Notes under the pieces: generated by a model
What the model was told of the DNA's origin: nothing
Database searches by the model: none
Seen by the model: only the letters and a program-made list of their open reading frames with translations
Source: a virus
DNA: 23,720 nucleotides
IMG/VR virus record: IMGVR_UViG_3300031884_001575
Coordinates: 1-23,720 of that record
Direction: 5' to 3' (one strand)
Program-made: the position numbers and the translations under genes
In this document: positions 5,131-23,720 of the stretch, one piece after another
Layout of the letters: each line of letters opens with the position of its first letter
Position numbering within the stretch: position 1 is the first letter of the stretch

Positions 5131-5134
5131 CGCC

Positions 5135-7012: not shown

Positions 7013-7155
7013 GATACGCGAAAACCCCTTGAAACCCGCATGAACATTGGGTTTTAGACTGTCTCACTGACAACCACGGCAACGCATACGCCCCGAGAAA
7101 CTTGTTCCAACCCTGCTAGGTTAGTGTTGTCAGTTGCAGGGATGGAGCAAGCTCA

Positions 7156-7452: not shown

Positions 7453-7454
7453 CC

Positions 7455-10059: not shown

Positions 10060-10925
10060 ACGCATTCCTCCTGTTTGCCCGGGCCCACGGCCTGGAGCTC
10101 GATGCGAGTCGCCTGATGGTTGGTGAGCGTGTGCGCCGCTGCGGCACCATCGACAAGCCCTGGTCAACCAACGGTGCGTACTTTTGGGATGGTGAACGCG
10201 GCTGGGTCTTCAACTGGGCAGAGGAAGCCAAGGCGTATTGGTTCAACGATGTCAATGCAGCGCCATGGACCGAAGCCGAGAAAGCCGCGTGGAAGGCCAA
10301 GCGCGCTGCGGCTGCGACCAACCTGGAGGCTAATTACCAACGTGCTGCCGTTCGCGCTGCCGAGCTGATTCGCAGCACTACCCCGGGCCCACATGACTAC
10401 CTGCACAGGAAGGGCTTTCCAGATGCCCAGGGCATGGTGGCAAAAGACGGCGCGCTGGTCATCCCCATGCGCAATATGGATACCAACGCTTTGCAGGGTG
10501 TTCAGCTGATCCTGTGGAATGAGGCTGAGCGCAAGTGGGAAAAGAAGATGATCCCCGGTATGCGGGCCAAGGGCGCCGTTTTCTGGATCGGCGACAAGCA
10601 AGCCCCGGAGACGTTTCTGGTCGAAGGCTATGCAACAGGGCTGAGCGTGGTGGCCGCGCTGCGCAGCGTGGGTCTGCGGGCTTCCGTGCTGATCGCCTTC
10701 AGTGCCAACAATCTGGTGCTGGTTGCCCCCCATGTGAAGGGCCGGGCGTTTGTCTTTGCCGACAACGATGTATCAGGCACCGGTCAGCGCGCCGCAGAGG
10801 CGACGAAATTGCCGTGGTGCATGAGCCCCGGGGCTGGCGAGGATGCCAATGACCTGCATATGCGTGCCGGCCTGATGGCGGTCTGTCAGCAGATCATGGA
10901 AGTTCGCAGGAGGGCGCGCCCATGA
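10056..10925 (+). CDS. Toprim-domain DNA primase
   Basis: The 289-residue protein has an N-terminal region with 'LMVGERVRRCG' and 'GAYFWDGERGWVFNW', which resembles the primase-associated domain of phage/plasmid Toprim primases. It then has a catalytic Toprim domain: the Glu in 'FLVEGYATGLSVVAAL' (Glu190) and the DxD in 'VFADNDVSGTG' (Asp236, Asp238). These residues bind magnesium for primer synthesis. No CHC2 zinc finger or helicase domain is present; the SF2 helicase encoded just upstream may supply the latter activity. The start overlaps the helicase stop (ATGA) and the end overlaps the second initiator-like gene. Confidence 0.88.
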   Translation: MNAFLLFARAHGLELDASRLMVGERVRRCGTIDKPWSTNGAYFWDGERGWVFNWAEEAKAYWFNDVNAAPWTEAEKAAWKAKRAAAATNLEANYQRAAVRAAELIRSTTPGPHDYLHRKGFPDAQGMVAKDGALVIPMRNMDTNALQGVQLILWNEAERKWEKKMIPGMRAKGAVFWIGDKQAPETFLVEGYATGLSVVAALRSVGLRASVLIAFSANNLVLVAPHVKGRAFVFADNDVSGTGQRAAEATKLPWCMSPGAGEDANDLHMRAGLMAVCQQIMEVRRRARP

Positions 10926-11761
10926 GCAGGTACACAAAGCCACAGCGTGACCCACGCGGCCACAGCATGCGCATCTATGACGACGTCTACGATAGCCACG
11001 CCTTCGCCGCACTTTCGCCGCATGATGTGCTGGCCTACCTAGCACTGCTGCGCGAGCTGAAGCAATACAACAATGGCGACCTGTCCCTACCGCTGACCCG
11101 CGCCAGCAAGCGCGGTATCAGCCATTCCAAGACCCTGGCCCGCAGCCTGCGCGCCCTGTGCGCCGTGGGACTGGTGGCAATCACTCGCAAGGGTGGATGC
11201 GCACGTGACGGAGAGCGCCTTCCGACACTGTACCGAGTGACCGACCGCGTGTGCTACGACATTCCAAAGTTGATGCTTCACGCCGTCAAGGAAACCAACG
11301 AATGGAAGCGCATCGCCAGTGTCGAACAGGCCATAGACCTCATTGCCGCTGCTGAACTTGCCGCAAAGAAAGCCTATGCAGAAAAAATTAGCCTAGGGCA
11401 CGCCGTGCTGCATACCGCATCACTAGGTGCCCTGGTAAGCCCAAATACTAGGGCACCTAGTGATCCATGGAATGATGGACTAGGGCACGGCGTGACTATG
11501 GTTGAAAAGGGCTCAAATCCAATAGGCATGCGGGTTGTGGGCGGGTTTTCTGATGAAGGTGAAAAAGCAATCCATAGGGCACCGCGTATGCCTCCTTTAT
11601 ATGTTGCCATCCCTACGCCGTATTTGGACTCTGTGAAGTACGTCCCTCGCTACCACTGGCTTACGAAAAACCAAATCGGCTTCATTGCAAATCTGATCGG
11701 CAAAGCCCAACCCCACGCCGCCGAGCACTTCGCCGGCAAACACGATCCCATCAACTTTTGA
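10922..11761 (+). CDS. Winged-helix replication-initiator-like protein 2, with internal iterons
   Basis: The product has 279 residues. Residues 18-110 have the same plan as the protein at 5135: 'LSPHDVLAYLALLRELKQY', 'NGDLSLPLTRASKRG', 'SKTLARSLRALCAVGLV', then a strand pair ending 'PTLYRVTDRV'. Identity between the two is limited, so they are distant relatives at best. Residues 157-225 are encoded by DNA holding five copies of a TAGGGCAC repeat, and the C-terminal 40 residues ('VPRYHWLTKNQIGFIANLIGK') are again ordinary. Position behind helicase and primase supports a role in replication initiation. Start is an ATGA overlap with the primase gene and has GGAGGGCG upstream. Confidence 0.68.
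   Translation: MSRYTKPQRDPRGHSMRIYDDVYDSHAFAALSPHDVLAYLALLRELKQYNNGDLSLPLTRASKRGISHSKTLARSLRALCAVGLVAITRKGGCARDGERLPTLYRVTDRVCYDIPKLMLHAVKETNEWKRIASVEQAIDLIAAAELAAKKAYAEKISLGHAVLHTASLGALVSPNTRAPSDPWNDGLGHGVTMVEKGSNPIGMRVVGGFSDEGEKAIHRAPRMPPLYVAIPTPYLDSVKYVPRYHWLTKNQIGFIANLIGKAQPHAAEHFAGKHDPINF
11394..11582. repeat. Iteron array 2: TAGGGCAC repeats with a 12-bp inverted pair
   Basis: Copies on the + strand are TAGGGCAC at 11394-11401, 11449-11456, 11481-11488 and 11575-11582. A reverse copy is at 11421-11436, where CACTAGGTGCCC (11421-11432) is a perfect inverted repeat of GGGCACCTAGTG (11451-11462) across an 18-base loop. The copy at 11447-11461 is itself palindromic (ACTAGG-GCA-CCTAGT). The sequence is unrelated to array 1. 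All lie inside the initiator-like gene, again as in lambda O. Confidence 0.72.
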
Positions 11762-11774
11762 GGACACCACCACC

Positions 11775-11969
11775 ATGAACATCACCGCCCGCACCTGTGC
11801 CAACTGCACATCCTTTGATCCAACAGCCAAGGACGGCTACACCTGCTTGGCCGGCGTCGGCATCCCCGCGCGCGATCCCGGTCGTCAGAACGTGTACTGC
11901 AGCCCAGCCGCTGGCGATTGCTGCGATTCCCATCAAACCGCCGTGGAAGCGGCAACACACGGACTTTGA
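11775..11969 (+). CDS. Small Cys-rich protein
   Basis: The 64-residue protein has seven Cys: 'TCANCTS' near residues 8-11, 'YTCLAG', 'VYCSP' and 'GDCCDS'. Its CxxC plus later Cys and His resemble a small zinc-ribbon or iron-sulphur-like fold. The ATG at 11775 follows the initiator-like gene by 13 bases with GAGGACACC upstream. No named family is certain; similar tiny Cys-rich proteins are frequent in phage replication regions. Confidence 0.7.
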   Translation: MNITARTCANCTSFDPTAKDGYTCLAGVGIPARDPGRQNVYCSPAAGDCCDSHQTAVEAATHGL

Positions 11970-11971
11970 TC

Positions 11972-12574
11972 ATGACAACACCCAAGCTCACCGCCGACCA
12001 AAGAGCCGCATTGCTGCACCTGGTATCCATGCGGGCCGAGGCTCGCTACCTGGTTCGAAACAAGGAAGCCAACAGGGCCTATATCCGCATGCTGAAGGCC
12101 GCCCACGCACAAGCCATCAGGACCGGCGACACCAAAGCCGAGGCGCTGCACAAGATTGACCTGGCCGAAGCCAAAGACGCCCAAATCGAATTGGAATTCG
12201 ACATCATTGAAACAGGCATGGCGTTCATGCAGTCATGCAGCCATTACGACAAGTTGCCCCGTGAAGTGTGGCTACGGGCGCTGTCGGTCAACGAAAGCGA
12301 GTGGTCCAACCCCCAAATGCTGAAGTACGGCGACAGCGTGCGCAACGTGGTTGCCGTGCTGAAAATGGAAAACAGTGCGACAGGCAAAGAGGATGACTAC
12401 GAGCTTGTGTACAGGCCGCTGAACTGGTGCTGCACCATGGCGATGATGAACGCCATGCAGACAATCCCAGCACTGGGCAAGGCCACGCACAACATGGCCA
12501 ACGAGATGTTTGATGGTGCGTTTGGCGATTGGAAAGCACCCTCGATGCTGGAGCAGATTGGGGTGAGTCGGTAA
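11972..12574 (+). CDS. Unknown phage protein, 200 residues
   Basis: The start at 11972 lies two bases after the previous stop; an in-frame Met at 11918 would run through the Cys-rich gene and is rejected. The protein is strongly helical and charged through residue 80 ('AEARYLVRNKEANRAYIRMLKAAHAQAI'), and has 'CCTMAMMNAMQTIPALGKATHNMANEMFDGAFG' near the C-terminus. No motif is recognised. It overlaps the next gene by a single base (TAATG). Confidence 0.65.
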   Translation: MTTPKLTADQRAALLHLVSMRAEARYLVRNKEANRAYIRMLKAAHAQAIRTGDTKAEALHKIDLAEAKDAQIELEFDIIETGMAFMQSCSHYDKLPREVWLRALSVNESEWSNPQMLKYGDSVRNVVAVLKMENSATGKEDDYELVYRPLNWCCTMAMMNAMQTIPALGKATHNMANEMFDGAFGDWKAPSMLEQIGVSR

Positions 12575-12858
12575 TGGCCAGCACACACATGCAGATAGTC
12601 GCCGCTGCATTGCGCTGGCACACGGCCCGGCAGAGGCGCATGGAAATTGGCGCCGAGCAAAGGCGCTACCAAGAGGCCAGCAAGCGCCGCACGGGCTTTG
12701 GAGGTGCAAGCTGGGACATAGGGCAGCACTTGACCGAATCGAAGCGCCTGGAGCTTGCTGCAGCCCGCGCCCTGTTCAAGCTGTTCGAGGCCGAGCGCGC
12801 CGGGCTGGGTGGCGCGCCGGATGGCGGTGTGGTGGACGCGGTGCTGCTGCTGGAGTAA
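12574..12858 (+). CDS. Small helical unknown protein
   Basis: The 94-residue protein begins at the TAATG overlap at 12574, with GGGGTGAG as likely ribosome binding site. It is rich in Arg and Ala and predicted helical: 'LRWHTARQRRMEIGAEQRRYQEASKRR' and 'ESKRLELAAARALFKLFEAER'. It may bind nucleic acid given its basic first half; no family is recognised. It is one cistron of the continuous operon. Confidence 0.65.
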   Translation: MASTHMQIVAAALRWHTARQRRMEIGAEQRRYQEASKRRTGFGGASWDIGQHLTESKRLELAAARALFKLFEAERAGLGGAPDGGVVDAVLLLE

Positions 12859-12866
12859 ATCAGAAC

Positions 12867-13772
12867 ATGAAACACCCTGATTCAAACCCCGACCACCGCA
12901 AGGTGCTGGACCTGCGTCGGCGCCATTCCCTGCGGGAGGTCGCTGACCTTACCGGCATGCCAATTGGCACAGTCAAGACGATATGCAGCCGCTCAGGCGC
13001 TTTTCGTGACAACCTGGCGCACCGCCAGCTCTTCAGCCTGCCGCCGATTCAGGTTAGCGAGTCGACAGCATTGACGGTGCCCACGCTGCCGCCTCAGGAG
13101 GCGGTGACCGGCGACAAGGAGCTTGACGCAGTGCTGTGGCTGCGCGAAGTTATCAAGACCGGGCAGGCCGAACTGATAGGCAAGGCCATGGTAGCGGCCA
13201 AGCGCATCCAGACGCCGCTCAAGGATCTGGAAGACAGATACATGAAACACCTGGTTTCAAAGAATCCTGGCAACTGGACGGTGATGTTCGCGACTTTCGG
13301 CTTTGCCGACCTGGAGGGCTTGGCTGGCAAGTCCGCCGATAAGTTGTCGCGCCAGCATGAGGCCTTGTCACGCTTCGGCAGTGTGGACGCCTTGTTTTCC
13401 GATACACCCGCCGAGCGGTTTTGCATTGACGCGATGAAGGGCTTGAAGCGCAAGGGCGACTTTGGCGACTACGACGAGGCCCAGGTGGACGCTCGATTTA
13501 AGGCGCGCCCGGACCTTGCACCCAACACCCTGAGCGACTGCCTGCACGAGTTGGCCTACTGGAGCAACCTGTACACGCTGCGCAATTCCCATGATTTGGG
13601 AGATCCAGGACCGCAAGCCAGTGCCCGCGAAGACTTTGCTTTTCGATGCCTTGCGCAAATTCGGCCCCGCACAAAGCCCGAGGCGGTGGCCGTGCTGCGC
13701 TACCTGGAAAGCTCTGAGCGCCTGGACTATGAGCACACCAGCGCAATTTTGTTGAATCTTGTTGGTGGGTAA
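12867..13772 (+). CDS. HTH protein of unknown role, 301 residues
   Basis: Residues 11-42 ('RKVLDLRRRHSLREVADLTGMPIGTVKTICSRSG') form a helix-turn-helix of the sigma-region-4 / transposase-like type. The rest, from about 80, is helical, with 'DKELDAVLWLREVIKTG' and 'LVSKNPGNWTVMFATFGFADLEGLAGKSADKL'. No catalytic motif is visible. The position, late in the replication operon and before the tail module, would suit an activator of later genes. This is inference; it could equally be a DNA-packaging or replication accessory. Confidence 0.65.
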   Translation: MKHPDSNPDHRKVLDLRRRHSLREVADLTGMPIGTVKTICSRSGAFRDNLAHRQLFSLPPIQVSESTALTVPTLPPQEAVTGDKELDAVLWLREVIKTGQAELIGKAMVAAKRIQTPLKDLEDRYMKHLVSKNPGNWTVMFATFGFADLEGLAGKSADKLSRQHEALSRFGSVDALFSDTPAERFCIDAMKGLKRKGDFGDYDEAQVDARFKARPDLAPNTLSDCLHELAYWSNLYTLRNSHDLGDPGPQASAREDFAFRCLAQIRPRTKPEAVAVLRYLESSERLDYEHTSAILLNLVGG

Positions 13773-13775
13773 ATC

Positions 13776-14159
13776 ATGGGCCACAGCACACCATCATTCA
13801 TCCTCGATCGGTTTGATTTAACCCAACCCAAAGAGAAGGGCACTCGCGCCGCCGGTCGACCAAAGACCCGCACTGCCAGCTATCTGGCAGGCTTGCTGCG
13901 CGACTATGCAGTCATGGCAGATTGGTTCCACCTGTCCCATGGCAGGGCCGCCAAGTCGGATGTTGAGCTACTCAATGCCTTTCTTCAAAGCGAATTCCAG
14001 AAGCATGGTCTGCGTGCCTGCCGCGTTGAATCGGCGGAAGTGCAGGGGCGTATCAAGACCCTTCGCAATCATCTGTCTGAGGCTCGGCATGTTTGTGCGG
14101 CTATCCCTGAAACCCTACTTTTTCCGGGATGCAATGCCAATCACACTGATGCTCATTAG
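13776..14159 (+). CDS. Unknown phage protein, 127 residues
   Basis: The ATG at 13776 follows the HTH gene by three bases; GTTGGTGGG is a weak upstream site. The protein has a basic 'RAAGRPKTRTAS' segment at about 25-36, an AT-hook-like GRPK core, then helices ('YLAGLLRDYAVMADWFHLSHG', 'LLNAFLQSEFQKHG'). The family is unknown. It is the last gene of the operon before a 28-base gap, after which the second AlpA-like gene starts. Confidence 0.62.
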   Translation: MGHSTPSFILDRFDLTQPKEKGTRAAGRPKTRTASYLAGLLRDYAVMADWFHLSHGRAAKSDVELLNAFLQSEFQKHGLRACRVESAEVQGRIKTLRNHLSEARHVCAAIPETLLFPGCNANHTDAH

Positions 14160-14187
14160 TGCTTATTAACGAATCGAGGTGTGATAA

Positions 14188-14550
14188 ATGCATACAGAAA
14201 TCGCCACCCAGCTGGGCACCAAAGCCACCGAGCCTACTGGTCAGACCTTGAGCATCTTGCGTTTCGCCGAGGTGACCAAAAAGACCGGCCTATCGCGTGG
14301 AGCGATTTCCCAGCGTTTAAGAAATAGCGAGTTCCCGGAACCGATCAACCTTGGTGGCCGTGCTGTGGGTTTCATTGAACATGAAATCAACGCCTGGATC
14401 GCTCAACTCATCCGCGCCAGCCGCAGGGAATCCTGCGATGCCGGTCAACAAAACCCGCCGCTTAACACCGGCACTCCCAGCACGGGCCATGCTGCCGTCA
14501 CTCCCGTTTTGGGTGTGGCGGCTGAGACCGTGCATTCCAACTCCCAATGA
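14188..14550 (+). CDS. AlpA-family regulator 2
   Basis: The product has 120 residues. Residues 22-74 ('LSILRFAEVTKKTGLSRGAISQRLRN' and 'FPEPINLGGRAVGFIEHEINAWI') match the AlpA/prophage regulator winged HTH. The last 40 residues are Pro/Thr/Ala-rich and probably disordered. The ATG has GAGGTGTG upstream. The stop overlaps the first ATG of the tail chaperone gene (ATGA at 14547-14550), so the regulator and tail genes appear translationally coupled, which is not a usual neighbour for a tail module. Confidence 0.8.
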   Translation: MHTEIATQLGTKATEPTGQTLSILRFAEVTKKTGLSRGAISQRLRNSEFPEPINLGGRAVGFIEHEINAWIAQLIRASRRESCDAGQQNPPLNTGTPSTGHAAVTPVLGVAAETVHSNSQ

Positions 14551-14975
14551 AAGAAAACATGTTCGACATTTCCACACTTGACCAAACAGCCAACGTCACA
14601 TTCGATGTGCCCGTTGTGCTTGACGCCGATGGCAACCCCGCCGCTGGCTTCAAAGTCGTTGGCCGCAATTCCCAGAACTTCCGCGATGCAGAGCGCGCCT
14701 TGACCCTTGCTGCCGTGAAAAAGGCCGCATCCAAGGCAACCAAAGCAATCGACACCGGCACCGATGCTGGCGCCGCACAGGTAATCGACACCATGAAAGC
14801 AAATGAAACCGGTATTGCGGTTGCCTGCACAGTGGACTGGTACGGTTTCAGTAAGGACGGTGCATCGGCACCCATGACGCCGGATGCCCTGGCCACTGTC
14901 TTCGAGAAACGCCCCACCTGGCTATCGAAGGTTACGTCAGCCATCGCCGCTGACGCAAATTTTCAGCCGAGCTGA
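14547..14975 (+). CDS. Tail assembly chaperone, G-type
   Basis: The protein has 142 residues; the second Met at 14559 may be the true start. It has a beta-rich N-terminal half ('ANVTFDVPVVLDADGNPAAGFKVVG') and a helical middle. Position directly before a T-type partner and a tape measure gene is that of lambda G. Three codons before its stop lies A AAT TTT (14957-14963) in the correct phase for -1 slippage. The product, alone and as a fusion with the next frame, would bind tape measure protein before tail polymerisation. Assignment rests on order, frameshift signal and the next two genes. Confidence 0.75.
   Translation: MKENMFDISTLDQTANVTFDVPVVLDADGNPAAGFKVVGRNSQNFRDAERALTLAAVKKAASKATKAIDTGTDAGAAQVIDTMKANETGIAVACTVDWYGFSKDGASAPMTPDALATVFEKRPTWLSKVTSAIAADANFQPS
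14957..14963 (+). promoter_or_regulatory. Programmed -1 ribosomal frameshift site
   Basis: The heptamer A AAT TTT fits the X XXY YYZ rule and is in the zero frame of the upstream gene (GCA AAT TTT CAG). Slipping back one base continues 'SAELIVDLCAYAEHE' into the downstream gene, bypassing the TGA at 14973-14975. A small hairpin TCAGC-CGA-GCTGA (14963-14975) follows at once. Conserved frameshifts of this kind make the G and GT tail chaperones in lambda-like phages. Confidence 0.72.
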
Positions 14976-14977
14976 TT

Positions 14978-15313
14978 GTGGACCTCTGCGCCTACGCTGA
15001 ACACGAATTGAATCTCAGCACGCCCGAGCCTGACGGTGTGCCGAAGCGTGAGCACCTGCGTATGGCGCAAGAGAGACTTGGCCGACCAATTGCGGAATTG
15101 CAGAGCGAACCACTTGCAGCAGAGTTGCATTACCTGTGGCAGTGGTTCGTTCAACTGAGCAACGCCCGGTCAAGTCAGACCGCAATCAGCTTTCAGGAAA
15201 TCCAAGCCTGGGCGCAACTCAAGCGTGTGGAGCTTGACCCATTCGAAGTCGAAGCCATCAAGGCACTCGACCAGGTGTTTTTGAACATTTTTAGAAAGAA
15301 GGCAATTCAATGA
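14978..15313 (+). CDS. Tail assembly chaperone, T-type extension
   Basis: The product has 111 residues if begun at the GTG at 14978, but the frame is open upstream and it is more likely made mainly as the C-terminal part of a frameshift fusion. It carries 'ELHYLWQWFVQLSNARSSQ' and 'ISFQEIQAWAQLKRVELDPFEVEAIKALDQVFLNIF', which I recognise from tail assembly chaperones located before tape measure genes in siphophages. The stop overlaps the tape measure ATG (15310). It would bind tape measure protein through this C-terminal part. Confidence 0.8.
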   Translation: MDLCAYAEHELNLSTPEPDGVPKREHLRMAQERLGRPIAELQSEPLAAELHYLWQWFVQLSNARSSQTAISFQEIQAWAQLKRVELDPFEVEAIKALDQVFLNIFRKKAIQ

Positions 15314-18105
15314 GCAATGAACTTACGAGTCTTGTTATTGTCGTTGACACCACTCAAGCGGCGAAGGCAACGGTCGACCTGGACAAGCTGACAGCCAGTG
15401 CAGACGTGGTTGAAGAATCCGTGACGCGCGCGGGAAAGGCTGCATCAGGCTCTGCCGCCGACTATGTGCGGGTTTCCACCACCACCAGCGATGCCGCCCT
15501 GAGTGCCGAGAAGTGGATAAAGAAGCTGCAGGAAGAGTTTGATGCACTCGGCAGAACCCGTGCGGAAATCGAGCGCATGCAAGCCCTGGCCGCGAACCTG
15601 CAAAAGTCAGAAGTCGACAAGATTACGGCGCTTGCACAGTCGATTGACTCTTACCACCGCCAAGAGCAGGTCATGAAGGACATGGTCAAGAGCCAAGACG
15701 ATGCGGCTTCAGCAGCAGAGCGGTTTATTGCAAAGCTGAAGGCGCAGGCTGATACTGTTGGCATGACCCGCAAGGAAATCCTTGCATTCCAGGCTGCGCA
15801 GCTGGGGGTGTCAAACGCAGCGGCACCGCTGATTGCCGGCCTTCAAGATGCAGGCCATGCTGCGGCAGGCTTCAGTCTGTCATCTTCCACGGCCACCCGT
15901 GAGCTGATTGTGATGTCCCGCGAACTTGCAAATGGCAACTTCACGCGGATGGGGAGTTCGTTTTCCATCTTCGCGCAATCCAGCGGCTTGCTAGCGGCAG
16001 CGATGAATCCCTTGGGGTTGACGATTGCTGCGGTTGCTGCATCGGCGGGCGTCCTTGCCGCCGCCTATACCTTTGGTGCCATGGAAGCAGAGAAGTTCAA
16101 GGCATCCTTGATTCTGACGGGCGGTGCTGCAGGTGTCACAGCCCAGCAGCTTCAGGCCATGGCGTTGGCGACAAGCACGGCGACGGGCTCCACGATCGGG
16201 AAATCAGCAGAGGCCATCACAGCGTTCTCGTCTAGCGGGCGGTTTGCGGCTGACCAGATTTCGCAGTTCTCCGCCACCGCGATAAAGATGCAACGCGAGA
16301 TGGGCATATCCCTGGAAGATTCCGTCAAGCAATTTGCTGAACTTGGCCGAAGCCCGGTTGATGCATCCATCAAGCTCAACGAATCAATGCACTACCTGAC
16401 CCTGGGTGTGTTCGAGCACATCAAGGCCATGAACGATATGGGCGACCGCGTGAATGCAGCCAAAGCGGCGGAAGAAGCCTATGCGGATGCCATGAATCAG
16501 CGCATGCCCGTACTGGCGGCCAACTTGGGCGTCCTGGAGCAGACTTGGCGCGGTGTCGGTGAGATGGCCAAAGCGGGATGGGATGCCATGCTGGGTATCG
16601 GCAGGACAGAAGACCCGACCGCGAAGCTTGCTAGACAGCTTGCCGCATTCGAGAAATATGCCACTTTCAAAAGGAGCGGCGGTGGCGGACTGACCCCGGA
16701 AGAAAACGCGCAACTGGTGGCGTTGGAAAAACAGGCCGAGGTTCAAAAGACCATCGATTACCTGGCGCTCATGACGGCGGAAAACCGGAGAAAAGACAAC
16801 GAGCAGGCCATAGCAGGGATTGCGTTTGACACGATTGCAGATCGCTACCTCGATAAAGCCCTGCTCACAAATCGCGAGATAACGCGGGTGACTTTGGAAG
16901 GTCTTGCGGCTGGCAAGTCGAGGCTTGAAATTGACAAGGTGATTGCGAATATCCGGGCCGCCAATGCTGCCAAGCCGGAGAGCGTCAGCGCTTACCAGAC
17001 CTTCATTGCGGACATGCAGAAATACGAGGATGCTGCAAATCTGGAAATTGAGACCGGTAAGAAGCTGACCGCTGCACAGAAGCTCGAGAGTGATAGCTTG
17101 GTGAATCTCTGGTCAAAGTACACGCAAGGCAAGATGACGCTTGACGAAGCTGTCGATGCTGAAAACCGGATGAATGATGCCGTCCAAGCCATGACCAAAT
17201 CAGAAGCCGACTTGGCGAGACAGAAGGAGCAGGCTGACGCCATTGCTGAATATTCCAAGACCGTGGATGGAATAGACAAGACCGTCGCATCCGTTCTGAA
17301 GCAAATCGAAGCTGAAAAGCTGCAGATTGCATCCTGGGGGCTTACCAAGGGCGCCATTGAGGCCTTGAACCTGGTGAAGATTCAGCAGCAGGCCGTTGAT
17401 GCCAAGAAGCGGGCCGACATGCTGCAGGGGCTGGGTGACGATGACCTAGTTAGAAAGGGCCTCTTGGAAGAAGCGGCGACGTATGCTGAACTTGTCCGCC
17501 TGAAGAAGGTCTATGCCGACCTGCAGGCCAAAAAAGAGCAGGATGGCGCGTTCGCCTACTGGTCGACCATCCAAGACCAAGCCATAGCCACGCAAACAGT
17601 CGTCTCCAAGGCCTTCAAGGGCATGGAGGATGCGCTGGTAACTTTCGCCACCACCGGCAAGCTGGATTTCAATGGACTGGCAAACAGCATCATCGCTGAC
17701 CTGATCAGAATCCAGATTCAGCAAAGCATCACCAAGCCACTGTCGCAAGCCATGAGCAATGCAGGCGGGATGAGTGGCATCGCATCGGGCGTGGCAAGTC
17801 TGTTTGGCTTCGCAACGGGCGGAAATCCAACCCCCGGCGTTCCGTACCTTGTGGGCGAAAACGGACCCGAAATCCGCGTTGACACAGGCCCCGGCGTGAT
17901 CACTCCAAACCATCTTTCGGGATCTGGCGGGGCCGCTTCCATGACCATCAATCAGCCCATCGTGATCAACGCCCAGAACGCCAGCGCCGAAACCATAGGC
18001 CAGATCAGGGCCATGATGCCAGGCCTCATCGCCACCAACGCACGGACTATCACCGCCGTGGTGCAGCAGGCATTCGCCAAGCAGGGCGTGAGGGTCAGCA
18101 TATGA
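15310..18105 (+). CDS. Tail tape measure protein, complete
   Basis: The protein has 931 residues. It is Ala/Lys/Glu-rich with long helical stretches, a hydrophobic segment near 226-256 ('MNPLGLTIAAVAASAGVLAAAY') and further coiled-coil-like regions at about 480-760. A C-terminal part holds 'GVPYLVGENGPEI' (about 843-856), a hallmark of lambda-H-type tape measure proteins. These set the length of the tail tube in siphophages; with roughly 1.5 angstrom per residue it would specify a tail near 140 nm. The gene is intact at both ends and overlaps its neighbours, so it looks under selection. No minor tail, tube or baseplate genes follow. Confidence 0.92.
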   Translation: MSNELTSLVIVVDTTQAAKATVDLDKLTASADVVEESVTRAGKAASGSAADYVRVSTTTSDAALSAEKWIKKLQEEFDALGRTRAEIERMQALAANLQKSEVDKITALAQSIDSYHRQEQVMKDMVKSQDDAASAAERFIAKLKAQADTVGMTRKEILAFQAAQLGVSNAAAPLIAGLQDAGHAAAGFSLSSSTATRELIVMSRELANGNFTRMGSSFSIFAQSSGLLAAAMNPLGLTIAAVAASAGVLAAAYTFGAMEAEKFKASLILTGGAAGVTAQQLQAMALATSTATGSTIGKSAEAITAFSSSGRFAADQISQFSATAIKMQREMGISLEDSVKQFAELGRSPVDASIKLNESMHYLTLGVFEHIKAMNDMGDRVNAAKAAEEAYADAMNQRMPVLAANLGVLEQTWRGVGEMAKAGWDAMLGIGRTEDPTAKLARQLAAFEKYATFKRSGGGGLTPEENAQLVALEKQAEVQKTIDYLALMTAENRRKDNEQAIAGIAFDTIADRYLDKALLTNREITRVTLEGLAAGKSRLEIDKVIANIRAANAAKPESVSAYQTFIADMQKYEDAANLEIETGKKLTAAQKLESDSLVNLWSKYTQGKMTLDEAVDAENRMNDAVQAMTKSEADLARQKEQADAIAEYSKTVDGIDKTVASVLKQIEAEKLQIASWGLTKGAIEALNLVKIQQQAVDAKKRADMLQGLGDDDLVRKGLLEEAATYAELVRLKKVYADLQAKKEQDGAFAYWSTIQDQAIATQTVVSKAFKGMEDALVTFATTGKLDFNGLANSIIADLIRIQIQQSITKPLSQAMSNAGGMSGIASGVASLFGFATGGNPTPGVPYLVGENGPEIRVDTGPGVITPNHLSGSGGAASMTINQPIVINAQNASAETIGQIRAMMPGLIATNARTITAVVQQAFAKQGVRVSI

Positions 18106-18221
18106 GCGGCCATCTTTCACGGAATGGTGAATGGTTGAAGCAGGCGCCCGCCGGGATGGTGGCCCTGACCGTGATCGATTTCCAAGGGTTCATCAACAAG
18201 ACCGTGAACGGGTTGTCATGA
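18102..18221 (+). CDS. Very short unknown protein behind the tape measure gene
   Basis: A 39-residue frame starts by ATGA overlap with the tape measure stop and reads 'MSGHLSRNGEWLKQAPAGMV' and then 'ALTVIDFQGFINKTVNGLS'. It could be a genuine small protein or the start of a once longer minor tail gene that has been cut off. No family is recognised. GAGGGTCAGCAT upstream could serve for ribosome binding. Confidence 0.45.
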   Translation: MSGHLSRNGEWLKQAPAGMVALTVIDFQGFINKTVNGLS

Positions 18222-18258
18222 GAATCAGCGAAACCGAAACCATAAAGGAGTGTGCAGC

Positions 18259-18471
18259 ATGACCGATGAAACCACGACGTCCAAAAAGACAAACCGTCTG
18301 ATTGGCTTCATTCCAGAAGATCAATTCTTGGAAATTACTGCCAATCTCGCCGCAACCGCAAAGCTGGCCAAGGCCGCAAAGGGAAAACTCGCCCAGATAG
18401 AGAAGCGGTTCAAAGAGGAGGGCGTGGTTGCAAAGGCCCAGCGCTCGAAAGCACAGAAGGGAATTGCATGA
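18259..18471 (+). CDS. Small basic unknown protein
   Basis: The 70-residue product starts at the ATG at 18259 with AAGGAG about 12 bases upstream. It is Lys-rich and helical in the second half ('AKLAKAAKGKLAQIEKRFKEEG'), perhaps nucleic-acid-binding or coiled. Its end overlaps the next gene by four bases. No family is recognised. Confidence 0.6.
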   Translation: MTDETTTSKKTNRLIGFIPEDQFLEITANLAATAKLAKAAKGKLAQIEKRFKEEGVVAKAQRSKAQKGIA

Positions 18472-19193
18472 CTGCCGCAAAATCATCTGCAGCTATGGCC
18501 AAGCCAAAAATCGGAAAGGCCGCAAATCTCATTGTGGCTGCCAATACAGGCAGGTTGGCGAAGCCTCATGAGTTGGTACTGATGTCATCGGCACAGAATG
18601 CAAGCGTCATGGAGTGTTGGAACACCTTTGGCGAGCTGGATGTATCGGCGCTGGCCAATGACTTGTACGCTCGGTCTCAAGTCGTGAAGAAGGGCGACCT
18701 CGGTACGGTGGAGTCCATGTTGTTTGGGCAGGCCATGTCTCTGCAGGCCATTTTTGCCAACCTCTCTCGCCAGTCTGCCAACAACTTGGGGAGTTCCGTC
18801 GATGTTGTTGACAAGTACCTGCGGCTGGCATTGAAGGCGCAATCACAGTGCCGGGCCACTCTGGAGACGCTTGCAATCGTCAAGAACCCGCAACCCTACA
18901 TCCGGCAGGCCAACATCGCCAATGGGCCGCAGCAGAACAACTTCGAAGCGGAATCGGCACGGTCTCAGAAACGCGCACGCGAGAAAAATCAAGAACCCTT
19001 TCCGAGTAACGAACTATTGGGGGCACCAGAGCATGGCCAACGGCTGGACGGCGGAGCGCAGGGCCCGTCAGGCGCAACTCATTCGAAACTGGAGCCCGTG
19101 GGAGCAGTCCACCGGCCCGCGCAGCCCACAGGGAAAGCAAAAAAGCGCCCAGAACGCACGGGTGCACGGCATGTGGTCGAAGGAGTGGCTTGA
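18468..19193 (+). CDS. Conserved-type unknown protein, 241 residues
   Basis: The start is an ATGA overlap with the previous gene. Landmarks are 'AANTGRLAKPHELVLMSSAQNASVMECWNTFGELD', 'ESMLFGQAMSLQAIFANLSRQS', 'YLRLALKAQSQCRATLETLAIVKNP' and 'RQANIANGPQQNN', which I recall from uncharacterised proteins common in betaproteobacterial genomes. The tail from 165 is hydrophilic and likely disordered. It has no known role and no catalytic motif. Its last 161 bases also encode another protein in a different frame (19033-19275), and both readings look natural. Confidence 0.72.
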   Translation: MTAAKSSAAMAKPKIGKAANLIVAANTGRLAKPHELVLMSSAQNASVMECWNTFGELDVSALANDLYARSQVVKKGDLGTVESMLFGQAMSLQAIFANLSRQSANNLGSSVDVVDKYLRLALKAQSQCRATLETLAIVKNPQPYIRQANIANGPQQNNFEAESARSQKRAREKNQEPFPSNELLGAPEHGQRLDGGAQGPSGATHSKLEPVGAVHRPAQPTGKAKKRPERTGARHVVEGVA

Positions 19194-19275
19194 AATCAAG
19201 GCAGCCGTCAGAGCTATGACAGTTCATCCGATGGAAGGCGAGATTCGCCGAATCCTGCGCAGAGACCTTGCGTAA
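19033..19275 (+). CDS. Small unknown protein overlapping the previous gene in another frame
   Basis: The 80-residue frame from the ATG at 19033 begins 'MANGWTAERRARQAQLIRNW' and then has 'PWEQSTGPRSPQGKQKSAQNARVHGMWS'. That block, of the form 'STGP(R/K)(S/T)PEGK...NA..HG', is typical of a widespread family of short unknown proteins in proteobacteria, so this is not merely an antiphase reading. It shares 161 bases with the gene at 18468. It is very basic and may bind nucleic acid. Confidence 0.68.
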   Translation: MANGWTAERRARQAQLIRNWSPWEQSTGPRSPQGKQKSAQNARVHGMWSKEWLEIKAAVRAMTVHPMEGEIRRILRRDLA

Positions 19276-19381
19276 GGCGGCAAGCGGTTAACGATATTGA
19301 CATACGTCGGTGAAAAGGAGGGGCGGGCCCGGTTCATCCCTACCTTATAAAACTTATGGTTGAACTTGACAAAACTCGACA

Positions 19382-19813
19382 TTGCCGCAGCAGGAAAAAG
19401 CCACTGGGCTAAAGAATGAACTGAGTAGCTGGCTCACTTTTGAGCCAGTAATCCAAAGCCGGGAGGGCGCACCCAAGGTGCGGGTAGACTTTCTTCCGAT
19501 ATGGGAATTCCAGCAACGGAGCCTGAGCCAACCCTTGGCCGTGGTCTATTTGGTGCTGGCGCTGGTGGCATGGCGTCATGTACACCAGGCGCGCCGTGCC
19601 GGTGGCCAGCGCCAGCGGAATGGGTCCACAGCTCACGCCCACGGCTTTTGCATACGGCGTGCGATGGTAGCCGAGATTACCCCACACCAAGAAACCTGTA
19701 TCCATGCGGGTTTCGAGCTAAAAAGGGCTGATATACCCAACATCCCTACGCCCACGGGCTCGCACGCCATGGACCAAGCCGGCGACAGCACTCTGAACAC
19801 TAACATTTGCTAA
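19382..19813 (+). CDS. Doubtful open frame with a copy of the early-gene N-terminal segment
   Basis: The frame could encode 143 residues, but only the last 45 ('TCIHAGFELKRADIPNIPTPTGS' onward) have support: they match the N-terminal part of the gene at 3537 in the same frame. The upstream part reads poorly, and the first codons contain two strong hairpins (19430-19447 TGGCTCA-CTTT-TGAGCCA and 19468-19482 CGCACC-CAA-GGTGCG), which suggests the leader is an RNA rather than protein-coding. It may be a decayed early-region remnant or an Ash-like phage P4-type gene. The start is unknown and I see no good ribosome binding site. Confidence 0.35.
   Translation: MPQQEKATGLKNELSSWLTFEPVIQSREGAPKVRVDFLPIWEFQQRSLSQPLAVVYLVLALVAWRHVHQARRAGGQRQRNGSTAHAHGFCIRRAMVAEITPHQETCIHAGFELKRADIPNIPTPTGSHAMDQAGDSTLNTNIC
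19676..19753 (+). repeat. Diverged copy of bases 3573-3650
   Basis: The two 78-base stretches align without gaps with about 60 identities by hand count, including an ATTxCCCCACACC start, CCATGCGG and GGCTGATxTACCCAACA. Both lie in the same orientation 16 kb apart and in the same reading frame of their host open frames. This suggests a repeated early-region module rather than a recent duplication. Confidence 0.7.
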
Positions 19814-19827
19814 CAGGCGGTGCGCAG

Positions 19828-19962
19828 ATGGTTCGCATCTTGATTCAGGTTCGCAGCATCTTTCCGGACGGCACCAAGCATGCAGTGAGCAAGAAACCCA
19901 ATGCTGGCGCGGCTTGCCCGACATTTCCAATTGCGTCAGCCGCAATTGCTCCGAACCCATAA
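19828..19962 (+). CDS. Very small unknown protein
   Basis: A 44-residue frame, 'MVRILIQVRSIFPDGTKHAV' continuing to 'AAIAPNP', has a natural strand-turn-strand start and ends just after a perfect inverted repeat CAATTGCG/CGCAATTG (19928-19935 / 19941-19948). There is only a weak GGCGG upstream. It could be real, since the N-terminal 20 residues look protein-like, but nothing identifies it. Confidence 0.4.
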   Translation: MVRILIQVRSIFPDGTKHAVSKKPNAGAACPTFPIASAAIAPNP

Positions 19963-20031
19963 ACCAGAATTCAGTAGCAAGTTGGTTCGCAGCTTGTGCG
20001 CTATTCTGATGAGTATGTAGCCTGGCAAAAC

Positions 20032-20072
20032 CGGGCGCTGAAAATCAGGGCGCGAAGCCAAATTTTCACCCG
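20032..20072 (+). ncRNA. Strong stem in the lipoprotein leader region, unknown class
   Basis: CGGG (20032-20035) plus TGAAAAT (20039-20045) pair with ATTTTCA (20062-20068) plus CCCG (20069-20072), giving 11 pairs with a three-base bulge and a 16-base GC-rich loop. The DNA from 19963 to 20148 holds no convincing gene (a 21-codon frame at 20088 is unsupported). The stem could belong to a regulatory RNA or a leader of the downstream lipoprotein gene. There is no T tract. Confidence 0.35.
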
Positions 20073-20148
20073 TTCAGGGGATACCCATGCAAGCCGTAGT
20101 GTGGCAGGCTGGGGTTGGATTTCACCCATCACAACAGGGATTTACTAA

Positions 20149-20625
20149 ATGACTACGATTTTCAAATCAATTCTCGCTGCCATCTTGGCGTCAATTCTTT
20201 CGATACCACTCGCTGGATGCGGCACTCCGGTGCAACGCATCACGACTACCGCGTCCGGCAATCCAGAGGTGCAAATCGACAATGTTGATGTTGACGCAGT
20301 TAAGTCGCGGCTGCTTGAACGAGCATTGACGAAAGGCTTTCAGGTGGAATCCGATTCGGCATCCCAGTTGGTCATATCGCAAGAGTTGAAGGGGATGCAA
20401 GAATCTTTGATGCGTTTGGCCATTGCAAATTCGTACTCCACGCCGGTACGAGCCGTGACGGCAATCACATTCATTAAGAATCCGGCCGGCGTGAAGATAT
20501 TCTCCAGAACCACCGCGATGTCTACCATGCCGATGGGGCAGGTCCAAAAAATGGCGATGGACGACGCCAACACTTTCAACACAATGCAGGCGTCATTGGA
20601 CAGGCTAAAGGAGAGCTTTAATTAA
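20149..20625 (+). CDS. Lipoprotein of unknown function
   Basis: The product has 158 residues. A signal peptide 'MTTIFKSILAAILASILSIP' leads to the lipobox LAGC with Cys24, so the mature protein should be lipid-anchored. Residues after the Cys ('GTPVQRITTTASGNPEVQID') are followed by an alpha/beta pattern ('KSRLLERALTKGFQVESDS', 'AVTAITFIKNPAGVKIFSRTTAM'). No family is named with certainty. In a phage-related setting it could be a superinfection-exclusion or lysogenic-conversion protein; this is inference. The sequence after the signal is less GC-rich than the phage genes upstream. Confidence 0.75.
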   Translation: MTTIFKSILAAILASILSIPLAGCGTPVQRITTTASGNPEVQIDNVDVDAVKSRLLERALTKGFQVESDSASQLVISQELKGMQESLMRLAIANSYSTPVRAVTAITFIKNPAGVKIFSRTTAMSTMPMGQVQKMAMDDANTFNTMQASLDRLKESFN

Positions 20626-20663
20626 GGCCCTGGGGGAAGATTACCGGCGCTTCCGATGCCAGT

Positions 20664-21056
20664 TCAGTGCTGTCCGGGCGAGTTGTCGGCAACGGCGCCT
20701 CGCCCGAAATCCTTGATGTATGGCCATGCTGACACGAGCAGCGCAAAGACTGCAATCACTGCAGCGATTTTTGACCACTTGGCGGATTCGGCAGCGTGTT
20801 TGGCTGATTCTGCAGCCGCGTGCGCTGACGACTCTGCCGCCTCCGTGGACCTTTTGGACAGTGCAAGCTGCTCGGCTTCGAGACGCCTCTGCCCACCGTT
20901 TTCCTGCTCTTCTAGCCACGCGCGAGCAACGCCTGCACTTTTGCCGCTAATGATTCCGACGGCGACGGTTTTGCGCAAATGGTCAACACCACTGCCATCT
21001 TCATTGTGTTCGCTCACCCACTTTTTGACGTCATCGAAGGACTGCATCTGTGACAT
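20664..21056 (-). CDS. Single-pass membrane protein with coiled coil
   Basis: The minus-strand protein has 130 residues. Residues 1-50 are mixed, 51-92 are Glu/Ala-rich and likely coiled coil ('EAEQLALSKRSTEAAESSAHAAAESAKHAAE'), and 94-114 form one transmembrane helix ('WSKIAAVIAVFALLVSAWPYI') followed by a short tail. Holin-like size and topology are possible, but holins usually have more helices. It is convergent with the lipoprotein gene, with only 38 bases between the two stops. The start codon overlaps that of the divergent gene at 21055, so the Met at residue 4 may be the true start. Confidence 0.65.
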   Translation of the reverse strand: MSQMQSFDDVKKWVSEHNEDGSGVDHLRKTVAVGIISGKSAGVARAWLEEQENGGQRRLEAEQLALSKRSTEAAESSAHAAAESAKHAAESAKWSKIAAVIAVFALLVSAWPYIKDFGRGAVADNSPGQH

Positions 21057-21186
21057 GTACGCTTTCTATGATGTTGTCATTGATCGTACACGGGGAGTTG
21101 CGCATTTGATGGCGGAAGTCCATGATCAATCGGAGTTCGATATTTTCGTTTATCAAGATGGTTTCACAAAAATTTGGAGTGAATAA
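21055..21186 (+). CDS. Very small unknown protein
   Basis: The 43-residue frame 'MYAFYDVVIDRTRGVAHLMA' continues to 'FVYQDGFTKIWSE' and overlaps the next gene by one base (TAATG). GAAGGA lies about 12 bases upstream. Its start codon shares two bases with the start of the minus-strand gene, which makes one of the two starts suspect. Composition is A+T rich like the next two genes. No family is recognised. Confidence 0.5.
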   Translation: MYAFYDVVIDRTRGVAHLMAEVHDQSEFDIFVYQDGFTKIWSE

Positions 21187-21653
21187 TGACTAAATCAGCA
21201 GATGAAATTTACAAGGCGTTTTCGATGCTTCAGAGTGCCCGTGGAAGCCTGGAAAATAGATTCAATTCATTTGTACGAGAGGTGAGTTGTGTTTGGGATC
21301 AATCCCGACATAACCAAAATCATCTTCTTGGTATGGAATTGACGAAATCGCTGGAAAACTCAAGGTTTGAAATTGCCTTGTGTGGCAGGACTTTACAATT
21401 TGCCTTTACCGTTGGATTAACAGATGAAGGGCAACCGAGAGGGTGTATCACGTGCACTACGCCTGATGACAGATTCGAAGGTTCCAGAGCCGTGATCGCA
21501 GTCATCACATTCAAGATAAATGGCGATGTCGAGTACCCACCTAAACCGACTGATTTCGCTGATTCACTCCAAATAGACGATACCATCTCGGCGATTTACA
21601 TCATCAGTTACTGCGTCTACAAAGTACTGCGCCTGAAAGTTGTTTCGAGTTAA
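21186..21653 (+). CDS. Unknown protein of the A+T-richer cargo, 155 residues
   Basis: The start overlaps the previous stop. An N-terminal helical half ('KAFSMLQSARGSLENRFNSFVREV') precedes a beta-rich part ('RFEIALCGRTLQFAFTVGL', 'RAVIAVITFKINGDVEYPP') and a last hydrophobic helix ('ISAIYIISYCVYKVLRLKVV'). The family is unknown. Codon usage differs from the phage genes at 15-18 kb (many A/T third positions), suggesting separate acquisition. It is followed by a hairpin-prone gap of 45 bases. Confidence 0.65.
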   Translation: MTKSADEIYKAFSMLQSARGSLENRFNSFVREVSCVWDQSRHNQNHLLGMELTKSLENSRFEIALCGRTLQFAFTVGLTDEGQPRGCITCTTPDDRFEGSRAVIAVITFKINGDVEYPPKPTDFADSLQIDDTISAIYIISYCVYKVLRLKVVSS

Positions 21654-21698
21654 GCGGGTGTCTAGCTCTGTTCTCTATAGATACACGCCCAACTAATT

Positions 21699-22781
21699 AT
21701 GAGCATCACAAAATGGATCTCTTCACTATTCCAGAAACTTGAGCCTGAATCGGTAGACGCAAAAGATGCTGGCTTAGATGCAAGACAGGAGTCTGTAAAA
21801 ACCGAAGTCGCGTCAACCTTGGAAGATGCTGTTGCGGGCCTTAGTCCAGAGCAGCGGATGTTCTGGGACTATGCGTCACGCATTACGCAAGTTCTGAACG
21901 AGTCGTTGAACATTTCAAATAGCTCAAAAAATCCCGAAACCAAGGTGTCTCGTCTTGAGTTGGCCAAGTTGAAGCTAAATGAATTGGTGGAGTTAATCAA
22001 TGTTCATCCATACATCAAATTGACAAACATCGATGATGTTCGGAAGACCATTGAAAATCTCACAGAAAAGTATGTATCAGTGGGGTACTTTGCAGCAACG
22101 GAAGGTGCTGATCAAGGCTATCAGCAGGACGTCTGGAAACAGTGGAATGTACCAATGATGGATATGACCAAGGGGTTCAGATTCACGGCAACATTGCAGT
22201 TGCGCACTCCATTAAGAGTAATTTCGCGCCATATGGAATACCACGAAGGCCTTACAGATCCGCCCAGAATTGCACATACTCAATGGGAGGGATGTTGGCT
22301 TCCGGTTCTGAAGACGTGGGCCGAGCAGGGCATTGAAGGTCTACCCGAAATTCCAGATAATGGATACGTTGCATCCTCAGTTGGGCCACTTGAGAACCAC
22401 GGAGTAGATTTCCAAAAGTTTTTGGTTGCCTTAAGAACCATCGTTGAAAGCAATCAATCTATAGAAGCTAGACGAGATGCTATTGAGGGTGGTTTTATAA
22501 GTGGTCAATGGCGTGATTTTTGCATATTGCTGGGTGGCCATGAGGATATTAAAAATCGGTTTTTCCCGATGTTTATACACACTATAAATGGAATTCCAAG
22601 TAGCGTGTTGTTAGACCTGCAGAATAGGGGGTTAACCACTCCAAAAAAACTAGCGCAAGAGTCAGATGAATCTTTGCTTTCAATTAAAGGCATTGGCCCT
22701 GCAAAGTTGAAAGCTATTCGACTAGCCGCTGAAAGTGCTACCAATCAGAATGCAGAATTTTTGGATCTTGTTCGGCATTGA
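21699..22781 (+). CDS. Unknown protein with C-terminal helix-hairpin-helix
   Basis: The product has 360 residues. The N-terminal 120 residues are helical and charged. The middle, about 125-310, is a mixed domain with 'GFRFTATLQLRTPLRVISRHMEYHEG' and 'FQKFLVALRTIVESNQS', and I do not recognise it. Residues 316-343 ('RGLTTPKKLAQESDESLLSIKGIGPAKLKAIR') form a helix-hairpin-helix DNA-binding motif. The ATG at 21699 has no clear ribosome binding site. A+T-rich composition and location among phage genes fit a cargo gene, for example defence or DNA repair; there is no nuclease motif I can point to, so the function is unknown. Confidence 0.68.
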   Translation: MSITKWISSLFQKLEPESVDAKDAGLDARQESVKTEVASTLEDAVAGLSPEQRMFWDYASRITQVLNESLNISNSSKNPETKVSRLELAKLKLNELVELINVHPYIKLTNIDDVRKTIENLTEKYVSVGYFAATEGADQGYQQDVWKQWNVPMMDMTKGFRFTATLQLRTPLRVISRHMEYHEGLTDPPRIAHTQWEGCWLPVLKTWAEQGIEGLPEIPDNGYVASSVGPLENHGVDFQKFLVALRTIVESNQSIEARRDAIEGGFISGQWRDFCILLGGHEDIKNRFFPMFIHTINGIPSSVLLDLQNRGLTTPKKLAQESDESLLSIKGIGPAKLKAIRLAAESATNQNAEFLDLVRH

Positions 22782-22857
22782 TGGTTGGAGATTCGTGTCA
22801 AATACCAGAGCTGCAGTTGGTAATGCCACAGAAGAAGTGAGCGATGAAAAAGCCGGT

Positions 22858-23568
22858 TTAGGTCTTGATCTTGGTTGGACGCCAGCCCATTGCTTTGATC
22901 CAGAGACCTATACGTCGGTCGCTTGCATGACGGATTAGCTCCTTTTGCAACACGGGCTGAATGAAGTCTGCAGCAGCGGCATATGACCTGAAGTGTTTGC
23001 TGTTTGCCAGTTCCAGTGCGCGTCTCTTGTACTCGCCCCACAATGTGGCGTTTGCAGTCTTGGCCGCGGGGGACCTAACAGATTTACTCTCCTGCTTCTT
23101 GGCAGCAATCGTTTCGTTTATGGCCTGGGTGGTGGCCTGGGTAAGGTGATGATCTTCACGCTCAGAGTGCTGTTCTCCGCCATCGATGTCTATTGCCAAA
23201 TCGGAACAGGTCATACCTTCCAGCACCAAACCGATTGCAGCAGGCGTTGCGCCGGCAAGTTCAAAGGCCTCTTTCGCGGCTGCAAACTTCCAAAGCGCCA
23301 GCACCGCGAGCTTATCGAACGGATTGATCTCGCAATACCCAGTCGGGATGTCGACCAAGTGTGAGGAGGTGTCATGCCTCCTGAGCAGAAGGTCATAGTC
23401 CGAGATAAATGTGCGCACCATAGCCGGGGTGTCGGCAACAAGAAACATGGCCTTTGCATCTGCGGAGGTACAAGCCCTTCCTAGCATTACACGAGCCTCT
23501 TGACTCTCCAATACGAACAGTGCCACCGCATGCAGATGCTTATCCAATTGCTTCGCAATGCGGCGCAC
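22858..23568 (-). CDS. Unknown protein, 236 residues, possibly 5'-truncated
   Basis: The only start available is a GTG at 23568 without a ribosome binding site. The frame stays open for 11 codons further upstream ('SQEKAHNAAS') to a TAG, so the gene may have lost its natural start. The N-terminal half has 'NPFDKLAVLALWKFAAAKEAFE'. The second half has an acidic 'LAIDIDGGEQHSEREDHH' linker and ends with 'ATLWGEYKRRALELANSKHFRSYAAAADFIQPVLQKE', a helical block reminiscent of DNA-binding tails in integron and island proteins. No name can be given. It runs against the HhH gene, with 76 bases between the stops. Confidence 0.6.
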   Translation of the reverse strand: MRRIAKQLDKHLHAVALFVLESQEARVMLGRACTSADAKAMFLVADTPAMVRTFISDYDLLLRRHDTSSHLVDIPTGYCEINPFDKLAVLALWKFAAAKEAFELAGATPAAIGLVLEGMTCSDLAIDIDGGEQHSEREDHHLTQATTQAINETIAAKKQESKSVRSPAAKTANATLWGEYKRRALELANSKHFRSYAAAADFIQPVLQKELIRHASDRRIGLWIKAMGWRPTKIKT

Positions 23569-23720
23569 AGATGCGGCGTTGTGGGCTTTTTCTTGGCTCT
23601 ATGCCGTTTAGTGTGGAACTTGACGTCACAGGCACCGATGAGTTAGTCCGCCGGCCTGCGGCATTGCCAGCTGCATAGGGTTTGAAGGCAAGTGCTTGAG
23701 TTTGGACATGCGCAAATATG

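Follow-up and report, generated by a model that had tools for sequence, protein, structure and literature searches.

A tape measure gene with its own chaperones in a probable phage satellite, and the recurrence of tape measure genes in att-bounded satellites of Proteobacteria

Introduction

Phage satellites were, to our knowledge, previously regarded as remodelling capsids and packaging while using the tails of their helpers unchanged. The first demonstration of chimeric tails came in 2026, in one Vibrio family only and with a contractile-tailed helper (PMC12987554). In that work, Mathur, Boyd and colleagues (Nature 2026, PMC12987554) described that the PLEs of V. cholerae encode a tail assembly chaperone (TAC) and a tape measure protein (TMP), to which PLE11 adds a baseplate hub. 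The chimeric tails were demonstrated by electron microscopy, western blot and mass spectrometry, those of PLE11 being 10 nm shorter than the tails of ICP1, and deletion of tmp cut PLE transduction by 96–99.9% (PMC12987554). Here we analyse the virus record IMGVR_UViG_3300031884_001575 of IMG/VR over its entire length of 23,720 bases (the window), which is classed by IMG/VR as linear and without a completeness estimate. In this window, a tape measure gene and a pair of chaperone genes with a predicted frameshift site stand without head, packaging or other recognisable tail genes, and complete satellites carrying a TMP were found in other bacterial genomes.

Other described systems share part of this gene content. 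Putative tmp genes are present in some cf-PICIs (PMC12987554, Extended Data Fig. 10). The gene set int-alpA-primase characterises PICMI, P4-like and PICI elements, and the PICMIs were described without capsid-remodelling genes, no TMP being reported (PMC10803314). Another example is AH14b, a small satellite of Pseudomonas phage AH14a with AlpA and a primase, which uses the particles of its siphophage helper; all of its structural genes come from the helper, and no TMP was reported in AH14b (PMC4936722).

A tail cassette without head, tube or tip genes

The initial annotation had described an AlpA-like regulator, two tail chaperones with a frameshift site and an intact TMP of 931 residues, and this description is borne out by profile matches and by an in-phase slippery heptamer. 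The AlpA regulator (14188–14550, + strand; PF05930, 2.2e-15), the second of the window, lies directly 5′ of the tail module. It is followed by TAC1 (gpG-like; 14547–14975, +), which was assigned through a weak match to phrog_313 (4e-4), its position and the frameshift site, a Pfam search having given no match; its true start may be the second ATG, at 14559, which matches the chaperone start (MFDIS...) of L003, a phage lineage discussed below. TAC2 (gpT-like; 14978–15313, +, with the frame open from 14954) matches PF23812 Phage_TAC_18 (1.3e-17). Its frame is −1 relative to that of TAC1, and the overlap of 22 nt, from 14954 to the end of the TAC1 stop at 14975, contains the heptamer A_AAT_TTT (14957–14963, +) in the phase X_XXY_YYZ, by which TAC1 is predicted to be fused to TAC2. 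The chance of finding an in-phase heptamer in a seven-codon overlap is about 2%, given the in-phase XXXYYYZ rate of 0.33% per codon in this window. The TAC2 stop overlaps the start (ATGA) of the TMP gene, an intact frame at 15310–18105 (+) that encodes a lambda-type protein of 931 aa (PF06791 TMP_2, 3e-36; PF09718 Tape_meas_lam_C, 1e-19; phrog_24, 1e-97). The hallmarks of a lambda-type gpG/gpGT pair, namely overlapping genes in −1 frame, located 5′ of TMP and containing an in-phase slippery heptamer, were found in the window and again in L103, a contig described below.

Among the window proteins scanned with Pfam and PHROG, none matched a family of terminase, portal, capsid, tube, tip or lysis proteins, in agreement with the initial annotation, which had recognised no terminase, portal, capsid, tail tube or baseplate gene. 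AlpA-TAC1-TAC2-TMP is the only recognisable virion-gene cassette of the window. The interval between the replication genes and AlpA, as well as the region 3′ of TMP, hold only small genes without packaging, head, tube or tip matches. After TMP come a small open reading frame (ORF) without PHROG match (18250–18471, +) and, at the usual tail-tip position of phages, a 241-aa gene (18468–19193, +) with no Pfam, no significant PHROG and no tail-tip family match. AlphaFold models were unusable for TAC1 (pLDDT 44) and for the 241-aa gene (pLDDT 46). The combination known from the PLEs, a TMP with a cognate chaperone and without tube and tip genes, is present in the window, and tube and tip would be supplied by a helper.

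The C-terminus of the tape measure protein

Over most of its length, the window TMP shares about 26–30% identity with the TMPs of ordinary phages. At the C-terminus, identity to the 726-aa TMP of L003, which lies within a normal siphophage tail operon, reaches 82% over the final ~165 residues and 90% over the final 60, and in this C-terminal comparison an omega of 0.11 was obtained, a value that includes the phage lineage. Contig C385, from the bin of L103, carries a TMP to which the L103 TMP is 86% identical over the last 70 residues, with little likeness before them; the C385 TMP is cut by the contig end and followed by a gpJ-type tip gene, and contamination of the bin is possible. All collected TMP pairs were compared in this way. 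Where the last 60 aa reached 80% identity or more, unrelated bodies were seen in WINDOW-L003 and L103-L119 (the C385 match) alone; the pairs are non-independent, and ordinary phages show the same pattern at lower C-terminal identity. The candidate helper lineages are L003 for the window and, for L103, the tail operon on C385.

The same layout in other contigs

A decisive check proposed with the initial annotation was a search for the same gene order in other loci without head genes, and it came out positive. L103, a 10.6-kb contig of a metagenome-assembled genome, has the order helix-turn-helix (HTH) gene (HTH_17/MerR-like)-TAC1-TAC2-TMP (874 aa), in which TAC1 matches phrog_344 (2e-22) and TAC2 matches PF06223 Phage_tail_T (3e-16), and the chaperone overlap contains its own in-phase slippery site, A_AAA_AAC. 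Downstream of the TMP come small genes and then a host HDOD gene; a tail tip gene is absent. Since the body of the L103 TMP is not that of the window TMP, the layout HTH-TAC1-TAC2-TMP has arisen, or has been kept, at least twice. The gene g4238, present in the window and in L103 (36–40% identity), was considered as a satellite marker and rejected, as it also occurs in AlpA-primase islands and in L133, an IMG/VR contig with terminase-like and portal-like ORFs (by inspection).

Close copies of the window were also found. L002, a contig from another metagenome, matches positions 7113–23594 (16.5 kb) at 99.75% and is likewise without head genes, and L004 repeats part of the element. These sequences show that the window is a real element in circulation and not an accident of a single contig. 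Between the window and L002 there are 41 differences, all but two of them (39) inside 7174–7813; of the remaining two, one is synonymous in TMP and the other lies in a lipoprotein-like gene. No close relatives of the window TMP were found in GTDB genomes by short patterns.

Two features of the L002 alignment were observed at its edges. The cluster of differences at 7174–7813 and the start of L002 at 7113 suggest a recombination edge or a strain variant left of the replication genes. At the other end, the window and L002 part abruptly at 23594, inside a reverse-strand gene; the 126 bases that follow gave no match to plasmid records, and this break is possibly an insertion sequence or an alternative flank.

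Satellites bounded by att repeats

PF09718 was searched for in 399 genomes belonging to one order, of which 31 gave a total of 39 places; about 14 kb were fetched around each place and sorted by ORF size and inspection, with domain searches for exceptions only. Most of these places are ordinary tail operons. Three elements (G027, G228 and G288) have replication genes and a TMP without tube or tip, and a class-wide sample of 369 genomes contributed one more TMP element, G782, among six new places inspected. G228, G288 and G782 are complete satellites bounded by attachment (att) repeats, in which an intact TMP is the sole tail gene. An integrase and att repeats bounding 7–20 kb, the usual form of a satellite, were found in these three elements and not in the window.

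G228 comprises 14.6 kb between 45-bp exact repeats of the 3′ end of tRNA-Asn, and carries an integrase, VapE, a TMP (662 aa) and a TIR gene. G288 (C31:169398-178200; L201/L167) comprises 8.8 kb between 49-bp repeats that resemble a tRNA 3′ end, and its genes encode an integrase, a CHC2 zinc finger protein, a D5 helicase, an HK97-type capsid protein and a TMP (682 aa). G782 (C1:2840110-2856040; L283/L278) comprises 15.9 kb between 48-bp repeats, one of them at tRNA-Glu, with an integrase (recognised by inspection and because it is homologous to the integrases of G228 and G288), an AlpA-like HTH protein (by inspection), a DUF5906 primase and a TMP (705 aa). G027 (C15; L155/L180/L181), of about 15 kb, has an integrase, an AlpA-like HTH protein, a TMP (726 aa) and an S49 peptidase of the head-protease type; no capsid gene was recognised in it, and a search for att repeats gave nothing longer than 13 bp.

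Some further observations were made on these elements. With its 8.8 kb, G288 is a strikingly minimal pirate. In G782, a short M41-like protein is encoded before TMP, and the other strand carries an OLD-nuclease and UvrD-helicase pair that resembles Gabija (by inspection).

G228 and G288 have in common the integrase (2e-113), the TMP (1e-137) and two small genes, and differ in their replication genes and att site. Their TMPs share 44% identity, with an omega of about 0.40 at a dS of about 1.5, which is near saturation. In this family the TMP is thus a conserved core gene under purifying selection, which is the opposite of relaxed selection. A scan of IMG/VR with the TMPs of G228 and G288 returned ordinary phages or contig ends only.

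Several candidates from the survey were rejected. L154 (G222) is a truncated prophage that ends at its TMP, and L116/L074 (Pseudacidovorax) is an ordinary tail operon with inserted cargo. The PF09718 match in L172 (G285:C16) is a false positive of the model, not a TMP but a ZorA-like protein in an apparent Zorya defence operon (by inspection).

Replication module and flanks of the window

The replication module that the initial annotation had placed upstream of the tail cassette was recovered. A replication-initiator-like protein (HTH_36; 5123–5935, +, start codon not fixed) gives weak matches to phrog_428/270 (1e-3/5e-3) and PF13730 (0.023). Inside its gene lie five 15-bp palindromic iterons, GCCCGTNNNACGGGC, one of them with a mismatch, at a spacing of 33–45 bp (5598–5759, no strand assigned); the five observed compare with 0.10 expected, and none of 100 shuffles reached five. 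This array is probably the replication origin. The first AlpA-like regulator (7156–7452, +; PF05930, 1.2e-5) is followed by a ParB-like protein (7733–8524, +; phrog_4715, 3e-15; 50% identity to the homologue in Acidovorax phage AP1), a DEAD/DEAH helicase (8521–10059, +; PF04851, 4e-17; phrog_16, 3e-75) and a Toprim primase (10056–10925, +; PF13362, 1.6e-7; phrog_2249, 7e-35), the last two with 74% and 69% identity to phage AP1, respectively. A conserved phage protein (12867–13772, +; phrog_6204, 1.6e-28), whose homologue follows the primase in phage Fels-1, completes the region. Own replication and regulation genes are thus found in the window without a complete packaging, head and tail set, as in satellites.

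At the left end, a C-terminal fragment of a tyrosine integrase, of 86 residues, remains at ~1732–1992 (+; phrog_1, 6e-4, profile positions 392–454 of 611), and its N-terminal part is absent upstream of 1732. A frameshifted, truncated gene (1420–1730), which by inspection resembles the N-terminal part of a restriction endonuclease, leads into this fragment, and the region 1420–1992 is an old recombination scar. The initial statement that all reading frames are undamaged was wrong on account of these two genes.

The flanks of the window hold host-like or unknown genes, and PADLOC detected no defence system among the flanking genes. A BrnT/BrnA-like toxin-antitoxin pair is seen at 2723–3242 (−), by sequence inspection only. 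Between 20500 and 23000 the GC content is about 0.44–0.45 versus 0.56, and the genes, unknown ones including that of an HHH-domain protein, are probably imported cargo.

Discussion

Among the described systems, PLE1, PLE4 and PLE11 are the most similar, with a satellite-encoded TAC and TMP, no complete tail and a TMP whose length differs from that of the helper (PMC12987554). The PLEs differ in their contractile tails, made with ICP1 as helper, and in the baseplate hub of PLE11, whereas a lambda-type TMP (PF06791/PF09718) with a gpG/gpGT pair is found here; the present satellites belong to Burkholderiales and other Proteobacteria and have different replication genes. Like some cf-PICIs with their putative tmp genes, G288 combines a capsid gene with a TMP. 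Capsid, portal and terminase genes are all absent from the window, which is in this respect distinct from elements with their own capsid and packaging genes. With PICMI, P4-like and PICI elements the window shares AlpA (present twice), its own primase and a small size, and G782 and G027 share the integrase, AlpA-like HTH and replication genes; unlike these elements, the window retains int only as a fragment. The likeness to AH14b lies in small size, AlpA, primase and a siphophage helper, and the difference in the TMP. The replication genes are similar to those of phage AP1, and the order of helicase and phrog_6204 to that of Salmonella phage Fels-1, but AP1 (55 kb) and Fels-1 are complete phages, whose genomes also encode packaging, head, tail and lysis functions.

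In our view the window probably represents a phage satellite, or did so until very recently. This proposal, already made with the initial annotation, gains from the recurrence of such gene sets in unrelated loci (L103; G228, G288 and G782), from the purifying selection on the TMP of G228 and G288 and from the proven parallel of the PLEs; it is strongly supported for the class, and less so for the window copy, because of the integrase remnant and the phage-type replication genes.

In lambda-type tails, assembly is initiated on the tail-tip complex by the C-terminal part of the TMP, which is coated by the chaperones and whose length determines that of the tube. The satellite would replicate itself, probably from the five-iteron origin in the initiator gene, and its activation would go through AlpA. 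With a lambda-type siphophage growing as helper in the cell, the satellite chaperones, made as a pair via the −1 frameshift, would load the satellite TMP, whose C-terminus, matching that of the helper, would dock on the helper tail-tip complex, and helper tube subunits would polymerise along it to form chimeric tails. We infer that the satellite keeps a tip-fitting C-terminus and brings its own chaperones and ruler, with the result that the tube and tip of the helper are assembled on its TMP. The tails of satellite particles would then differ from those of the helper in their ruler and in the injected protein, and helper tips would be diverted from helper particles; with a helper similar to L003, the satellite tails would be longer (931 vs 726 residues). 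The satellite may gain by its particles being preferred, by evading defences aimed at tails, or through the different injected protein. The selected property may be tail length or simply the exchange of the TMP as such, irrespective of its length.

Several findings weigh against a functional satellite in the window. L003 comes from another metagenome, and no helper was identified in the sample of the window. The integrase is a C-terminal remnant beside a frameshifted gene, no direct repeat longer than 11 bp was found that would join the window flanks as att sites, and the helicase and primase are of a phage type, closest to those of AP1, a phage with complete head and tail. The close copies may be one recent clone and are no proof of long-term selection, and the single synonymous nucleotide polymorphism between the TMPs of the window and L002 is too little for dN/dS. 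Moreover, chaperones are recognisable in the window and L103 but not in G228, G288, G782 and G027. Because of the integrase fragment, the missing repeats and helper, and the phage-type replication genes, this copy may descend from a prophage after loss of the head genes, or be the dead remnant of one.

The main rival to the satellite is accordingly a deleted prophage, namely an ordinary siphophage in which large deletions removed the genes for packaging, head, tube, tip and lysis, with the replication genes and TAC-TMP left behind and so far undecayed. The integrase fragment with its neighbouring pseudogene and a replication module of the kind seen in AP1 and Fels-1 would be expected of such a remnant, and the survey did contain one genuine case of a prophage truncated at its TMP (G222, L154). 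We nevertheless consider it unlikely, as at least two separate deletions would have been required that spared precisely AlpA-TAC1-TAC2-TMP and the frameshift site, the outcome in L103 is the same with a different TMP, HTH and slippery site, and selection for a gene set of this kind is evident from the att-bounded satellites.

An anti-phage device, in which TAC and TMP would act mainly as decoys that poison the tail assembly of a helper or invader, like Tai, Tab and Rta, and would not be built into useful particles, is improbable. Tail assembly is a known target of defence (PMC11364771, PMC12987554), and defence-like cargo occurs in the satellites (the TIR gene of G228; the OLD-type nuclease and helicase of G782, by inspection). 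The known blockers are, however, other proteins, such as the Rta of PLE11 with 80 aa, and not a full TMP with chaperones and a frameshift site; PLE transduction needs the TMP (PMC12987554), and the chaperone stoichiometry of a real tail would be superfluous in a decoy. Finally, that a whole phage is seen here as a fragment, with head and other tail genes beyond the contig ends, is mostly refuted and highly improbable, for although the record is linear and without a completeness estimate, the positions that these genes normally occupy, between the replication genes and TAC for head and tube and directly after TMP for the tip, lie inside the window and are filled otherwise, also in L002, and the flanks hold host-like or unknown genes.

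Significance

The principle of a satellite TMP and of chimeric tails is already known from the PLEs (PMC12987554). The satellites described here are new in their non-contractile, lambda-type TMP with a frameshifting chaperone pair, in the bacterial groups concerned, in the att-bounded examples, including an 8.8-kb element with capsid and TMP, and in the rule of C-terminal matching; no paper on these points was found, in a search that excluded subscription papers and some preprints. A wider proposition, on which we are evenly divided, is that tail-ruler piracy, in which the helper-matched C-terminus of TMP is kept and the rest replaced, is a widespread, repeatedly evolved strategy of satellites in Beta- and Gammaproteobacteria against lambda-type siphophages. 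If so, TMP replacement would change tail length and the ejected protein, and so possibly DNA entry and host range, and G288 would reduce this piracy to an integrase, replication genes, a capsid protein and a TMP. The presence of a TMP in unrelated and att-bounded satellites of other bacteria, with one layout that includes frameshifting chaperones, would make tail assembly a general target of satellites. The C-terminal match between satellite and helper TMPs offers a testable molecular rule for predicting satellite-helper pairs, and satellites with a TMP represent a natural experiment on the roles of tape measure proteins besides the setting of length.

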